Both the position numbers and the translations under genes were made by a program. Shown here piece by piece: positions 10,469 to 24,687 of a DNA stretch of 52,866 nt. This stretch comes from Verrucomicrobiota bacterium (lineage in GTDB: Bacteria > Verrucomicrobiota > Verrucomicrobiia > Chthoniobacterales > SZAS-18). How positions within the stretch are numbered: the stretch's first letter is position 1; every line of letters begins with the position of its first letter. Below the pieces are notes generated by a model that made no database searches, had not been told where the DNA came from, and saw only the letters and a program-made list of their open reading frames with translations. The stretch is taken from positions 1 to 52,866 of the forward strand of contig JANXRG010000076.1 of assembly GCA_025353105.1 (NCBI GenBank), given 5' to 3'.

Positions 10469-11908
10469 ATGCCTCCCGCGAAGGTCCGTCCGTTGTGCGT
10501 GGATCTCGACGGCACGATCCTGCGCGGCGACTCGTTTTGGGAACAGGTCTTCGCGCTCGCCCATCGCGATCCGCTGATCGTTTTCCGCGTGCTCGCCTGG
10601 AGCCGGCGCGGCAAACCCTTCGTCAAGGAGCACCTCGCGGGGCTTCCGCTGCCCGAGTGGTTGTCTTTCAACGTTGATGCCGGACTCGTCGCGTGGCTGC
10701 GGGCCGAGCGCGACGTGGGCCGGCCCGTGCATCTCGTGACGGGCGCGCACCGCGCCGCCGCGCAGCTCGTCGCGGAACATCTCGACTGCTTTGACGCGGT
10801 GCATTGCACCACCGCTGACCTGAATCTCACCTCCCAGCGCAAGGCCGCCCTCCTGCGCGAGCTGCACGGCGCGGGTGGATTCGACTACGCGGGAAATTCC
10901 AGCGCGGATCTCGCGGTCTGGCAGGAGGCACATACCGCGATCGCGTGCCACGCGCGGCCGCATACGATCGAGCGGCTGCACGCAATGCATCCGCGCGTCG
11001 AGGTGCGCGACCCGCTCCCGTCGACCCCGCGCACGATCCTGCGGCAGTTGCGGCCGCATCAATGGGTGAAGAACCTCCTCGTTTTTCTTCCACTCATCCT
11101 TGCGCACCGGCTCGCCGACGTCGCCGCGTGGAGCGCGTCGGCGCTGGCCTTCGTGTCGTTCTGCTGCCTCGCTTCCTCCGCGTATGGCCTGAATGATTTG
11201 CTCGACCTCGCCGCCGACCGCGCGCATCCCACGAAGCGGCGCCGTCCCCTTGCCTCGGGCGATCTGGCACCCGTGGCGGCCGTCGCGCTCACGCTCGGCT
11301 TGCCGATAATCTCCTTCGCGATCGCCGTGTTTCTACCATGGGGCTTCACGGTTGCCCTGGCCCTTTACGGGCTCGGCACGCTCGCCTACTCCGTTGCGGT
11401 CAAGCGCCGCGCCGGCGCGGACGTCATCCTCCTCACGGCGCTGTACACGATCCGGATTCTTGCTGGTGGTCTCGCCGCGGGCATCCTGGTGTCGCAATGG
11501 CTGCTGACGTTCTCGATCTTCTTTTTCCTCAGCCTCTCCCTGCTCAAACGCCACGGCGAAATCCTGCTCGCTTCTGATTCGAACGCGGAACGCATCCCGG
11601 GGCGCGGCTATGGATCCGGCGACCTGAGACTCGTCGGGATCATGGGTCGCGTCAGCGGCTGGGTGTCCGTCCTCATTCTCGTCCTTTATCTGAATGGCGA
11701 GGCCGTGACGCGCCTCTACCGGTCCCCCGCCCTGCTCTGGCTGCTGGGGCCCCTCCTGCTGTTTTGGTTTCACCGACTTTGGAAATTCTCGGCGCAGGGT
11801 CGGATTCCCGGAGATCCAATTCCATTCGTCTTCACCGATCCCGTGAGCTACGTCGTGGCGGGATTGACCGGCTCGCTGCTGGCGGTTGCCACCATCGTTA
11901 CGATTTAA
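10469..11908 (+). CDS. HAD hydrolase-UbiA prenyltransferase fusion
   Basis: About 479 residues. The N-terminal third is a HAD-type phosphatase domain: VDLDGTIL carries the two catalytic Asp, LVTGAH is motif II and GNSSADLAVW is motif IV. The C-terminal two thirds is a UbiA-family membrane domain with LRPHQWVKN at its start, NDLLDLAADRAHPTKRRRP as the first Asp-rich motif, and eight or so helices. The same fusion is known in many bacteria and resembles decaprenyl-phosphate phosphoribosyltransferases. The ATG at 10469 is chosen; GTG at 10454 is possible, while the ATG at 10364 overlaps the previous gene by 56 bases. It likely modifies a polyprenyl phosphate, together with the upstream DUF2298 protein. 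Confidence 0.83.
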   Translation: MPPAKVRPLCVDLDGTILRGDSFWEQVFALAHRDPLIVFRVLAWSRRGKPFVKEHLAGLPLPEWLSFNVDAGLVAWLRAERDVGRPVHLVTGAHRAAAQLVAEHLDCFDAVHCTTADLNLTSQRKAALLRELHGAGGFDYAGNSSADLAVWQEAHTAIACHARPHTIERLHAMHPRVEVRDPLPSTPRTILRQLRPHQWVKNLLVFLPLILAHRLADVAAWSASALAFVSFCCLASSAYGLNDLLDLAADRAHPTKRRRPLASGDLAPVAAVALTLGLPIISFAIAVFLPWGFTVALALYGLGTLAYSVAVKRRAGADVILLTALYTIRILAGGLAAGILVSQWLLTFSIFFFLSLSLLKRHGEILLASDSNAERIPGRGYGSGDLRLVGIMGRVSGWVSVLILVLYLNGEAVTRLYRSPALLWLLGPLLLFWFHRLWKFSAQGRIPGDPIPFVFTDPVSYVVAGLTGSLLAVATIVTI

Positions 11909-18151: not shown

Positions 18152-19744
18152 TCACCCCCGCATTTCCTGGTTGGTCGTGGCATCGAGCACGATAAATTTC
18201 TCCAGCGAGCCCTGCGGATCCGTGCGGAACGTGAGACGGGCCTCATAGCGGCGTTCGAGATCAACCAGCAAATCCTCGTCCTCGGTGCGCAGGCGCTGCA
18301 GGACCTCGGGATGGATGACCACCTTGTACTCGTGGATCTCCCCGCGGTGCTTGCGCATGATCGAATGGAGGAGGCGTTGCAGCTCCACGCTCATCGACTC
18401 GGCGCTCTTCACGCGGCCCCGGCCGTTGCAGTGCGGGCACGGCACGAACATCGTGCTGCTGATGCTCTCCTGCGCGCGTTGCCGGGTCATTTCCATCAGG
18501 CCCAATGCGGAAATCGGGAGGACATGCGTCTTGGATTTGTCGCGCTTCAACCGATCGCGCATGCGGTCGTACACCGACTGCTGATCCTTGCGGCTCTTCA
18601 TGTCGATGAAGTCGCAGATGATCAATCCGCCGACGTTGCGCAGGCGGAGCTGGCGCGCGATCGCTTCGGCCGCCTCGAGATTGGTCTGCAGGATCGTCTT
18701 GTCCATGTCGCGGCCCTGGCCCTTGTTGCGGCCGGTGTTCACGTCGATCGCGATGAGCGCCTCGGTCTCGTCGATCACGATGTAACCGCCGCACGGCAGC
18801 CAGACCTGGCGGTGGTACGCATCCTCGATCTGCTTTTCGACCCGGTAATTTTCAAAGACCGGGATCTGGCCCTGGTGCCACTCGATCCGGCTGCGCGAAC
18901 GCTTGGAAATCTGGCCGACCAGATCCTGCATGCGCTTGACCGATTCCTCGTCGTCGCAAACCACCCGGTCGATTTCGTCGGTGAGAAAGTCACGCACGGT
19001 GCGCTCGATCAAATCGGGTTCCTGAAACAGGCACGCAGGCGCGGGCAGCTTCTTCATCTTCTGTTCGATGCTGCGCCACTGCTCGACGAGCAGGCTCAAG
19101 TCCCGGACAAAAAAGCGCGAACGCTGGCCCTCGCCGACGGTGCGCAGGATGACGCCCATGCCCTCGGGAATTTCGAGTTCGCGCAGGATCTTGCGCAACC
19201 GCTCCCGCTCCTTGGGGTCCTCGATCTTGCGCGAGATGCCGCTCTGGTCCGAGTACGGCATGAGCACGAGATAGCGGCCCGCGAGGCTGAGATTGGTGGT
19301 GACGCGCGGACCCTTGGTGCCGATGGGTCCCTTGGTCACCTGCACGATCACCTCGGCGCCGACGGGATAGATGCTCGGGATATCCTTAACGGTCGGTTTC
19401 TTGGCCGCCTTGCGCTTGCCGTCCACCCGGCTGATTTCCTCGATGCCGCTGTCGAGTGCGGCGGGAAGCGCATCCCAGAAATGGAGAAAGGCATTCTTGT
19501 CGAAGCCGATGTCGACGAACATGGCCTTGAGGCCGTTCTCGATGTTCTTCACGCGGCCCTTGAAGATGCCGCCGACGATGTTTTTGTCGGACGCGCGTTC
19601 GACGCTGTATTCCTCGAGCACGCCGTCCTCGAGGAGGGCGACGCGACGTTCGAGTTTTTCGACGCTGATGGCGATGAGGTTGGATGGCTTTTTCTTGCCG
19701 ATCCCGAGAATTTTTTTAACGGTTTCTTTCACGAGTTGAAGCAT
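18152..19744 (-). CDS. rng: Ribonuclease G/E family endoribonuclease
   Basis: 530 residues: an S1-like RNA-binding part in the first 150 residues (IFKGRVKNIENGLKAMFVDI, with an inserted Lys-rich loop around residue 110), the DNase I-like catalytic core with IAIDVNTGRN and CDFIDM carrying the metal-binding Asp, and the Zn-link CPHCNGRG at about residue 422. No long unstructured E-type C-terminal scaffold is present, so it is RNase G-like. It cuts single-stranded AU-rich RNA in rRNA and mRNA processing. It is the last gene after mrdA in the shape operon, as is usual for rng. Confidence 0.95.
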   Translation of the reverse strand: MLQLVKETVKKILGIGKKKPSNLIAISVEKLERRVALLEDGVLEEYSVERASDKNIVGGIFKGRVKNIENGLKAMFVDIGFDKNAFLHFWDALPAALDSGIEEISRVDGKRKAAKKPTVKDIPSIYPVGAEVIVQVTKGPIGTKGPRVTTNLSLAGRYLVLMPYSDQSGISRKIEDPKERERLRKILRELEIPEGMGVILRTVGEGQRSRFFVRDLSLLVEQWRSIEQKMKKLPAPACLFQEPDLIERTVRDFLTDEIDRVVCDDEESVKRMQDLVGQISKRSRSRIEWHQGQIPVFENYRVEKQIEDAYHRQVWLPCGGYIVIDETEALIAIDVNTGRNKGQGRDMDKTILQTNLEAAEAIARQLRLRNVGGLIICDFIDMKSRKDQQSVYDRMRDRLKRDKSKTHVLPISALGLMEMTRQRAQESISSTMFVPCPHCNGRGRVKSAESMSVELQRLLHSIMRKHRGEIHEYKVVIHPEVLQRLRTEDEDLLVDLERRYEARLTFRTDPQGSLEKFIVLDATTNQEMRG

Positions 19745-19781: not shown

Positions 19782-22085
19782 TCACGGACGCGTGGCCCGC
19801 GAGGGAGTGGATTCGGAAGCGGGGGCGTCGCCGCCGCGTTGGAAAAACTTGCGCACGGTGTTCAACACCGGTGTATCGGGTTTCGCGGCCGGCGTCGGGG
19901 CCGGTTGGGCGGGCCGGTTCACTGGGATTGCCACGCGCACCGGCACCTGCCCGCGCGCATCGGCATCGGCCCGGATGACCGGCTCGGCCTTGCGCACCTC
20001 GCGCTGCGTTTCGCGATCGCGATCGCGGCCGCGTTGTACAATGGCCTGCTGGTCGTCGACGGTGTCGTCGGCGTCCGCGTCATCCGCCGAAGCCATCGCG
20101 GCGTCGGGCATCGTGACCACCGGGTCCGACTTGCTGTAATCGATCGCGCTGATAAAACGGAAACTGCCCGGCGCCGGCGCGAGCGCGGCGAGCTTTAACT
20201 CGGCGCCGTCGTCCAGCGCGAGGCACTCTTCCATGATCTTCGCCGAGATGGGCGCGGAGACGCCGCCGCCCGACTTGGCCCCCTGCACGAGTACGGCGAT
20301 GGCATAGCGCGGCGCCTCATACGGGGCGAAGGAAAGGAACCACGTGTGATTATCCTTTTCGCCGTTGCGATAAAATTCCGCCGTACCCGTTTTGCCCGCG
20401 ACCTGCACGCCCTTCAGCCGCGCGCGCGCGGCGGTGCCCCCCGACTCGTTCACGACTTTCCACATGCCGCGCCGGACCACTTCGATCTGGGCGGCGGTCA
20501 GGCCCTCGTCCAGCAGGTTCGAGCGGACGCGCGGCGGATCCTGCAGGTCGATGTTGCCGTCGCGATCCGTCACCTTGTCGATCAGCCGCGGATAGAAACA
20601 CGTGCCGCCATTGGCCACCGTGGCCGCGATGAGCGCCATCTGCAGCGGCGTCGTCTCCACGTAGCCCTGGCCGATTGAGGTGTTCGCGGTCTGGCCGTCC
20701 GACCAGCGCGCGCGCGGCGTGCGCGAAGTCAGCCAGTTGCGACCCGGCTGCGTGCCGGTCGCCTCGCTGGTCAGCTCGACGCCCGATTTCTGGCCGAGGC
20801 CGAGCAGCCGGCCGACCGTTTCGATCTGGTCGATGCCGGCGTCGTTGCCGAACTGGAAGAAGAACGCGTTGCAGGAATATTTCAGCGCATCGGCGAGGCC
20901 GATCGTTCCATGCGTGCCCTTGCCGAAGATGTGGCACTTCATGAATTTGTCGCCGTATTGCACGCCGCCCGCACAGTTGTAGCTGCGGCTGCCAATGCCA
21001 CGGCGAAGCCCCGCGAAGGCCGTGATCGGTTTGTAGGTCGAACCGGGGGCAAAAGAAGAAATCGCGCGATTGACCAACGGGTTGGTGTCGTCCTTCAACA
21101 GCGTCGACCAGTCCTTCGCCGAGACGCTCGGGATGAAAGTGTTCGGATCGAACGACGGCACCGACGCCATGGCGAGGATATTGCCGTTGTTTGGGTCGAC
21201 GACGACCGCCGCGCCGCGGCCCACCGCGCGCAGCGCCTGCTCCACGATGAATTGGATGCGCGCGTCGATCGTGAGATAAACGCTGGAGCCGGGGGTCGGC
21301 GGCGTGTAGCTCGCCTCGCCTTCCACGACGCCCTTCACGTCACGTTTCAGCACGCGAACGCCGGGCTTGCCGCGCAAATAGCGATCCATCGTGAGTTCGA
21401 TGTTCGCCTTCCCCGAGACGTCGGCCTGGTAGAAATTGTAGCGCTTGGCCTCCTCGGGATCCGTGTCCTCGGGTCCGACGTAACCGAGCACGTGCGCGGC
21501 CAGCGCCCCGTAGAAATACTGGCGGACGGGCCGCGGAGAAACGTTGACGCCCGGCAGGCCGAGGTTGCGTTCGGAGAGCTTCGCCATGTCGGCAAACTTA
21601 AGGTCTTCCACGAACGTGTAAGGCACCTGGGTGTTGTTGCGGAAATGTTTTTGCAGGCGCTCGGCGTTGTAGTCCTGCCGGATGCCGAGCTGCGTGAGCT
21701 GTGGCTGCACGACGTCGTTTACAATGCGCACGACATCCACTTCCTTCGTGTCCTGCAGCATGCCGCGCACCGTGTGGGTCGCGGGGATCACCGGGACGGC
21801 CTTGGGCCCGACCGCGCGCCGGTAACCGTTGACCATGTCGGGCAGATAGAACTCGAGTTGATAGCTCGAGCGGTTGCCGACGAGCGTGACACCGTTGCGA
21901 TCGCGGATTTCGCCGCGCACCGAGGGAATGCGCACGGTGACCTGCGAACCGCCGCGGATTTTCTGCGCATACTGGTCACCCTTGACGACCTGGACCCACC
22001 ACAAACGGGCGACGAGGCCGCCGACCGCCAGCACCACAAAGAGGGCGAGCAGTTGCAGCCGGGTTTCTTTGGAGAAGGCAGCCAT
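19782..22085 (-). CDS. mrdA: Penicillin-binding protein 2 (peptidoglycan transpeptidase)
   Basis: 767 residues from the ATG at 22085. An N-terminal membrane anchor (LQLLALFVVLAVGGLVARLWW) precedes the pedestal domain and a transpeptidase domain. Active-site motifs are PGSTYKP (Ser about 349), YSCN (about 403) and GKTGTAEF (about 564). A 90-residue Pro/Ala/Asp-rich tail follows the domain. It crosslinks peptidoglycan during rod elongation, with RodA, MreC and MreD as partners; rodA is not adjacent here. mreD ends 5 bases upstream. Confidence 0.95.
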   Translation of the reverse strand: MAAFSKETRLQLLALFVVLAVGGLVARLWWVQVVKGDQYAQKIRGGSQVTVRIPSVRGEIRDRNGVTLVGNRSSYQLEFYLPDMVNGYRRAVGPKAVPVIPATHTVRGMLQDTKEVDVVRIVNDVVQPQLTQLGIRQDYNAERLQKHFRNNTQVPYTFVEDLKFADMAKLSERNLGLPGVNVSPRPVRQYFYGALAAHVLGYVGPEDTDPEEAKRYNFYQADVSGKANIELTMDRYLRGKPGVRVLKRDVKGVVEGEASYTPPTPGSSVYLTIDARIQFIVEQALRAVGRGAAVVVDPNNGNILAMASVPSFDPNTFIPSVSAKDWSTLLKDDTNPLVNRAISSFAPGSTYKPITAFAGLRRGIGSRSYNCAGGVQYGDKFMKCHIFGKGTHGTIGLADALKYSCNAFFFQFGNDAGIDQIETVGRLLGLGQKSGVELTSEATGTQPGRNWLTSRTPRARWSDGQTANTSIGQGYVETTPLQMALIAATVANGGTCFYPRLIDKVTDRDGNIDLQDPPRVRSNLLDEGLTAAQIEVVRRGMWKVVNESGGTAARARLKGVQVAGKTGTAEFYRNGEKDNHTWFLSFAPYEAPRYAIAVLVQGAKSGGGVSAPISAKIMEECLALDDGAELKLAALAPAPGSFRFISAIDYSKSDPVVTMPDAAMASADDADADDTVDDQQAIVQRGRDRDRETQREVRKAEPVIRADADARGQVPVRVAIPVNRPAQPAPTPAAKPDTPVLNTVRKFFQRGGDAPASESTPSRATRP

Positions 22086-22090
22086 CGGAA

Positions 22091-22615
22091 CTAGATGCCG
22101 CGGTGCAGGCCGCGGGGTTCGCGCGGATTCTCGCGGACGGGGTAATGCAAAAGGTTGGCCAGAATGGTGAACCCGAGATAGACGACCGGCGCGAGGAGCA
22201 GCGCGATCGCGCCGGGCGCAAGAATGCGCCACCACATCACCGGCGGGAAGTCGAACCCGCCGCGCTTGAGGTTGAGCACAAGAAACTCGGCGAGGAGAAT
22301 GGCGATGGTGCAGAGACTGCTCAGGAGGACGTGAATTTCCCAACGGCCGCGCAGGAACAACGGGCGCAAGCCGTGCATCAGGGTCCCGAGCAGTCCGTAG
22401 AGCACCACGCTGGTGCCCGCGAAGACCTCGACCGAGGGCGTCTTCAGGAGCGTCGCCGTGGACGTGATGACCTGGAGGTTGAGCAAATCCCAAAGCAGGC
22501 CCGAGCAGAACGCCAGCGTCAGCACGAGCGGATACGGCAGCGCGAGCGAGCCATAGGCGAGCAACACCGGGAAGAGCGTGATGCGCGCGCCGTGCAGCAC
22601 GTCGAATGACGGCAT
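22091..22615 (-). CDS. mreD: Rod shape-determining protein MreD (N-terminally interrupted)
   Basis: 174 residues from the ATG at 22615, with four or five membrane segments, including LPYPLVLTLAFCSGLLWDLL and the C-terminal ILAPGAIALLLAPVVYLGF; size and context fit MreD, which links MreC, PBP2 and RodA in the elongasome. The ATG at 22615 has no Shine-Dalgarno site. In the same frame, an ATG at 22678 stands 2 bases after the mreC stop with a strong GGAGGGAGG in front, but a TAG at 22630-22628 interrupts it after 16 codons (see finding). Confidence 0.85.
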   Translation of the reverse strand: MPSFDVLHGARITLFPVLLAYGSLALPYPLVLTLAFCSGLLWDLLNLQVITSTATLLKTPSVEVFAGTSVVLYGLLGTLMHGLRPLFLRGRWEIHVLLSSLCTIAILLAEFLVLNLKRGGFDFPPVMWWRILAPGAIALLLAPVVYLGFTILANLLHYPVRENPREPRGLHRGI

Positions 22616-22678
22616 CGCGTGCTGGAGCTATTGCGCAACGAGCGTCGCGCCGATCAGGAAGGCGGCAAACGGCAGCAT
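22616..22678 (-). other. In-frame upstream segment of mreD ending in an amber codon
   Basis: Sixteen codons, MLPFAAFLIGATLVAQ, read from an ATG with good ribosome binding site and coupled to mreC, then TAG (22630-22628), then four sense codons to the ATG at 22615. The peptide is hydrophobic and looks like the first membrane segment of MreD. A single-base change of CAG or TGG to TAG would explain it. Confidence 0.6.
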
Positions 22679-22680
22679 GC

Positions 22681-23499
22681 TCAGCCTCCCTCCTTGTGGG
22701 GAACGACGACGAACAAATTCTCCAGCCGTGACATGTCGACCGCCGGGCTCACGCGCACCTGTGCATCCAGTTCACGCACGCGCGGCTCCTCGGCCACGGT
22801 GCCTAGCACCAGACCTGATGGAAACACGCCGCCGCTCACGCCGGACGAGTAAACTTTCTGGCCGGGCTTCGCCTCGACCGTCTTCGGCAGGAACCGGATC
22901 AGCAGCTCCGGCTGGGCGCCGGTCGAAAGCCGCGTCCCGGAGAGAATTCCTTGATCCCGCGTGCCTTCGATGGAAACCGCGACCTTGCAATTCTCATCCG
23001 CGACCAGCAGCACATAGGCCGTGCGCTGCGCCACGATCGTGGTTTTGCCGACGAGGCCTGATTCGGTGAGGACTGGCATGTCACTTTCAATGCCATCCTG
23101 TTCGCCGCGATCGATCTGGACCTGGCTCCACCACGTGGCCGACTCGCGCGCAATCACGCGGCAGGGAATGAGCTTGAAATTCGAACGCTGCTTGTAGGTA
23201 AGGGCACGGCGCAGGTTTACGTTCTCATCGCCGAGGTCGCGGAGCATCTGGTTCGTCACGCGGAGCTCGTTATTTTCCGTCTTCAGCCGCTTGTTGTCGT
23301 CCTCCAACTCGGCGAGCGACTTCACGCCGGTGGTGTACGCCTGCACGCGGGTCTTCACGCTCGAACCGGTGCTGAACACCGGTGCGACCGCCTGTAATAC
23401 CGCGGCGGAAAGCTTTTGCTGCGTGCGCGGGTTCAGGCTGAAAAGCAGGCCCGTCGCGATGATAAACACCGCGAGCGCGATGAGCCCGGCGCGCGTCAT
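22681..23499 (-). CDS. mreC: Rod shape-determining protein MreC
   Basis: 272 residues: one N-terminal membrane helix (LIALAVFIIATGLLF), a coiled coil at residues about 65-100 (LAELEDDNKRLKTENNELRV), and the beta-barrel domain with CRVIARESATWWSQVQID and GLVGKT. It sits in the periplasm, binding PBP2 and the Mre/Rod complex. Its stop is 2 bases from the coupled ATG of mreD. It lies 138 bases after mreB. Confidence 0.93.
   Translation of the reverse strand: MTRAGLIALAVFIIATGLLFSLNPRTQQKLSAAVLQAVAPVFSTGSSVKTRVQAYTTGVKSLAELEDDNKRLKTENNELRVTNQMLRDLGDENVNLRRALTYKQRSNFKLIPCRVIARESATWWSQVQIDRGEQDGIESDMPVLTESGLVGKTTIVAQRTAYVLLVADENCKVAVSIEGTRDQGILSGTRLSTGAQPELLIRFLPKTVEAKPGQKVYSSGVSGGVFPSGLVLGTVAEEPRVRELDAQVRVSPAVDMSRLENLFVVVPHKEGG

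Positions 23500-23637: not shown

Positions 23638-24687
<1,050 letters not shown>

Follow-up and report, generated by a model that had tools for sequence, protein, structure and literature searches.

The mreD locus and its interruption

The window analysed here, a stretch of 52,866 nucleotides from the metagenome-assembled genome of a soil-type bacterium, carries on its minus strand a gene cluster in the order mreB-mreC-mreD-mrdA-rng (Table 1). A preliminary description of this DNA had reported that mreD is interrupted by one in-frame amber codon and then continues as an open frame, and all the bases stated for this reading are present. The mreC stop codon (TGA, 22683-22681) is followed by GC and then by the mreD start codon (ATG, 22678-22676), which confirms the spacing of 2 bases given there. 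After opening at this ATG, the frame reads 16 codons (MLPFAAFLIGATLVAQ) up to the TAG at 22630-22628, past which 178 open codons lead to the final TAG at 22093-22091. Coding signal was found on both sides of the stop, with a codon log-likelihood of +5.8 for the first 16 codons and +16.9 for the next 40, and the gene carries a single lesion.

ATG 22678 had been credited with a strong ribosome binding site. Accordingly, its pairing with the anti-Shine-Dalgarno sequence amounts to -11.9 kcal/mol, while the threshold for the top 1% of random sites is -9.8 kcal/mol. The internal ATG 22615 was likewise correctly described as being devoid of such a site, since the value obtained there is +1.2 kcal/mol, i.e. 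no Shine-Dalgarno sequence. This ATG is the sole one near the TAG at which reinitiation would be possible, and according to the AlphaFold2 model it is located directly after predicted helix 1 (residues 2-21). Folding of the RNA at the mreC-mreD junction revealed nothing unusual (z -0.39).

Table 1. Features of the mre cluster in the window, and additional genes interrupted by lone in-frame stops elsewhere in the same genome.
Feature	Position	Strand	Stop	Remarks
mreD frame	22091..22678	minus		ATG 22678 to terminal TAG, one interruption; orthologues in 95 relatives
In-frame stop of mreD	22628..22630	minus	TAG	codon 17, within predicted membrane helix 1 (residues 2-21)
Native start ATG of mreD	22676..22678	minus		2 bases past mreC stop
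Strong Shine-Dalgarno of mreD	22686..22694	minus		AAGGAGGGA region, in mreC 3' end
Internal ATG of mreD	22613..22615	minus		codon 22, 12 bases past the TAG, without Shine-Dalgarno
mreC	22681..23499	minus		intact
mreB	23638..24687	minus		intact
mrdA (PBP2)	19782..22085	minus		intact
rng (RNase E/G family)	18152..19744	minus		intact
ABC ATPase	L159 (G000:C117:78165)		TAA	clear case; also flagged by family search
PGA_cap protein	L161:6901		TGA	clear case
Kelch protein	L167:2071		TAG	clear case
Kelch protein	L169:9619		TGA	clear case
Subtilase	L160:6127, 5353		TGA + TAA	motif continuity; Pfam match stops just before the TAA
Small protein without Pfam domain	L236:4950		TAG	probable

Identity of the gene and comparison with relatives

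The gene lies immediately after mreC and before mrdA within the mre cluster, which is the position of mreD. Its product did not match the Pfam profile PF04093 and remained under the curated cut-off of NCBIfam TIGR03426. When the latter profile was applied to 20 relatives, 12 of them matched at E<=0.01, the best at 1.4e-5, all of these matches being weak and below the cut-off. Since the homologues of the order all behave alike, the low scores reflect the coverage of the profiles. Homologues were detected in 54 of 57 related genomes and at 67 loci of Verrucomicrobiota, mostly Chthoniobacterales/Spartobacteria. The AlphaFold2 model of the protein (pLDDT 84) predicts a six-helix membrane fold resembling that of S-components, and most of its best-ranking matches in the PDB are ECF S-components, with a probability of up to 0.99 and E-values of only 0.06-0.7. 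An ECF S-component fold with six helices has been described as common to MreD (PMC11109136). Synteny, homology and the predicted fold support the view that the gene encodes a divergent MreD. Compared with MreD proteins (PF04093 / TIGR03426) encoded in other mreBCD-mrdA clusters, it agrees in gene order, size, predicted fold and the weak TIGR03426 matches, whereas its sequence stays under the curated cut-offs throughout the order and the frame of the present copy is not uninterrupted, with the stop falling in helix 1.

MreD is below the Pfam and NCBIfam cut-offs across the whole order (window 22091-22678 and L031-L097), and automatic annotation will miss it there. In a 0.9-Mb relative, the MreD match at G012:C1:676825-677301 holds one TAA, which may be a normal stop overrun by the match.

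In all 95 relatives the mreD frame crosses the stop site uninterrupted and begins at a homologous upstream start (93 ATG, 2 GTG), as had been predicted for the N-termini of the orthologues. This indicates that the TAG is unique to the present assembly and does not represent a conserved signal. Among the 87 distinct relatives, the column of the stop is occupied by I in 58, V in 22, L in 3, M in 3 and A in 1, and a hydrophobic residue of helix 1 would be expected at this position. The proposal that the original codon was CAG or TGG was not borne out, as neither Q nor W occurs in this column in any of the 87. At the site of ATG 22615 the relatives carry I, L, V, C or F, and Met is present in none of these 87 sequences.

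Orthologues that begin at the internal ATG, named in the preliminary description as the finding that would speak against an interruption, were not encountered, and a native start at 22615 is ruled out by the upstream starts of all relatives and by a site that is never Met. A conserved short leader peptide is ruled out as well, the stop being absent from every relative, and the relatives lack both the stop and the internal Met that a programmed reinitiation leader would be expected to conserve. The number of lineage-specific residues in MreD (14-19, against 15-26 in a congener) gives no sign of accelerated change. Together with the single lesion and the coding signal on both sides, this argues that the gene is not decaying.

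Other lone stops in the same genome

We scanned about 845 kb of the same genome, the window included, for in-frame stops flanked by coding signal, inspected each candidate by eye and set aside normal tandem genes. Approximately seven other lone in-frame stops were recognised, among which TAA, TGA and TAG are all represented; these numbers are rough, the scan being blind to lesions as near the gene start as that of mreD and the judgement by eye being unblinded. In the clear cases, namely the ABC ATPase, the PGA_cap protein and the two kelch proteins, a Pfam domain match or repeat array spans the stop (Table 1). Part of this load may consist of true pseudogenes because several of the genes are accessory and one of them contains two stops. 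The same scans recognised no lone stops in 720 kb of one congener (G001) and 60 kb of another (G004), where the candidates were judged to be ordinary gene ends. A homology scan of the frames against a congener was swamped by antisense frames and re-found mreD as the only sense-frame case.

Origin and meaning of the stop

It is highly probable that the TAG is an isolated nonsense point change, either recent or artefactual, which is unique to one assembly and affects an otherwise ordinary mreD with no mechanism attached to it. The open frame in every relative, the single lesion flanked by coding signal, the intact partner genes and the other lone stops of the assembly all speak for this explanation. 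The present copy resembles single-lesion nonsense alleles, pseudogenes and consensus errors in draft metagenome-assembled genomes in having one in-frame stop with coding signal on both sides, in the absence of this stop from relatives and in the occurrence of further cases in the same assembly. Unlike such cases, however, mreD is usually essential for rod shape. A literature search on stop errors in assembled genomes found no paper.

With respect to the base itself, we infer with roughly even odds that the metagenome consensus took up a miscalled or minority-strain base in codon 17 of mreD, and we prefer this origin over a true recent mutation. The organism would then normally make the full-length MreD from ATG 22678. 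Against a miscalled base, a high base-error rate was not directly seen in MreB and PBP2, in which a test of low power found no surplus of unusual residues in conserved columns. The second version, a true recent nonsense mutation, is given somewhat less than an even chance, even when a short MreD and a null allele are taken together.

If the stop were real, ribosomes might load at ATG 22678, halt once 16 codons have been read and begin anew at ATG 22615, which would yield an MreD lacking exactly helix 1. Translation reinitiation downstream of premature stops has been investigated in E. coli (PMC7538156), and the present locus resembles such cases in its strong upstream loading site, its short first frame and the short gap of 12 bases between the stop and the next ATG, which is placed just past predicted helix 1. 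Moreover, the internal Met is peculiar to the source genome, as would be expected for a compensating new start, but replacement of I by M at a single hydrophobic position is frequent. In contrast to known reinitiation sites, ATG 22615 is unconserved and has no Shine-Dalgarno sequence, and the product is putative. Furthermore, helix 1 is one of six in the fold shared by MreD and S-components (PMC11109136) and is retained by every relative, and an MreD without it would have a disturbed topology. We therefore regard this route as unlikely. That the lineage makes a five-helix MreD by reinitiation with an elongasome that still works, the ATG and the nonsense codon having arisen together, is improbable.

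Slightly less likely than the restart at ATG 22615 is a real stop that makes mreD a fresh null allele, tolerated as the lineage no longer needs MreD, either through an altered PBP2/RodA or through another cell shape. The other stop-interrupted genes of the genome would fit this explanation, and in E. coli an activating PBP2 variant was able to replace essential components of the Rod system (PMC6207328). In addition, in the congener G002 (L173, G002:C205) the gene after mreC at 10902 is a TPR gene on the opposite strand and not mreD, and neither mreD nor the operon mrdA was found in this genome; the contig with its rng (L215, G002:C5), however, ends just before the expected mrdA, and the mreD-mrdA pair may simply be unassembled. 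MreD is described as one of the essential proteins of the elongasome, and in E. coli it modulates the interaction of PBP2 and RodA (PMC7793260). In the source genome MreD evolves no faster than that of the congener, and MreB, MreC, PBP2 and RodA are kept intact, RodA (L202) being 73% identical to the RodA of the congeners. Because these partners are intact, a true loss of MreD would be surprising and is unlikely. Only one SEDS gene (RodA) each and no FtsW-type copy were found in the whole genomes G000 and G004, which could be due to missing contigs; four other family members (G001, G002, G003, G005) have two SEDS matches each.

The least probable explanation is suppression of the codon, which the preliminary description had offered as an option. 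The frame resumes immediately past the TAG, and a C following a stop codon, as is present here, constitutes a leaky context. Nevertheless, RF1 is present in the source genome, no CUA anticodon occurs among the 46 tRNAs detected in it, and TAG is a common terminator, closing 110 of the 352 long frames of the genome sample. Recoding of TAG is thereby strongly disfavoured, and with TAA and TGA occurring in other interrupted genes, read-through, whether by a suppressor tRNA or through a changed genetic code, is hardly to be expected. Two tRNA-Lys(TTT) genes with equal scores are located about 1.1 kb apart at L108 (G000:C97:54628-55893) and possibly represent a recent duplication.

If the base is wrong, the interruption is a matter of annotation only, in that gene callers will place the mreD start at 22615 and leave out helix 1 unnoticed. 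Should the stop be real, the organism would provide a natural test of the need of MreD for helix 1 or, alternatively, of the loss of MreD while MreB, MreC, PBP2 and RodA stay.
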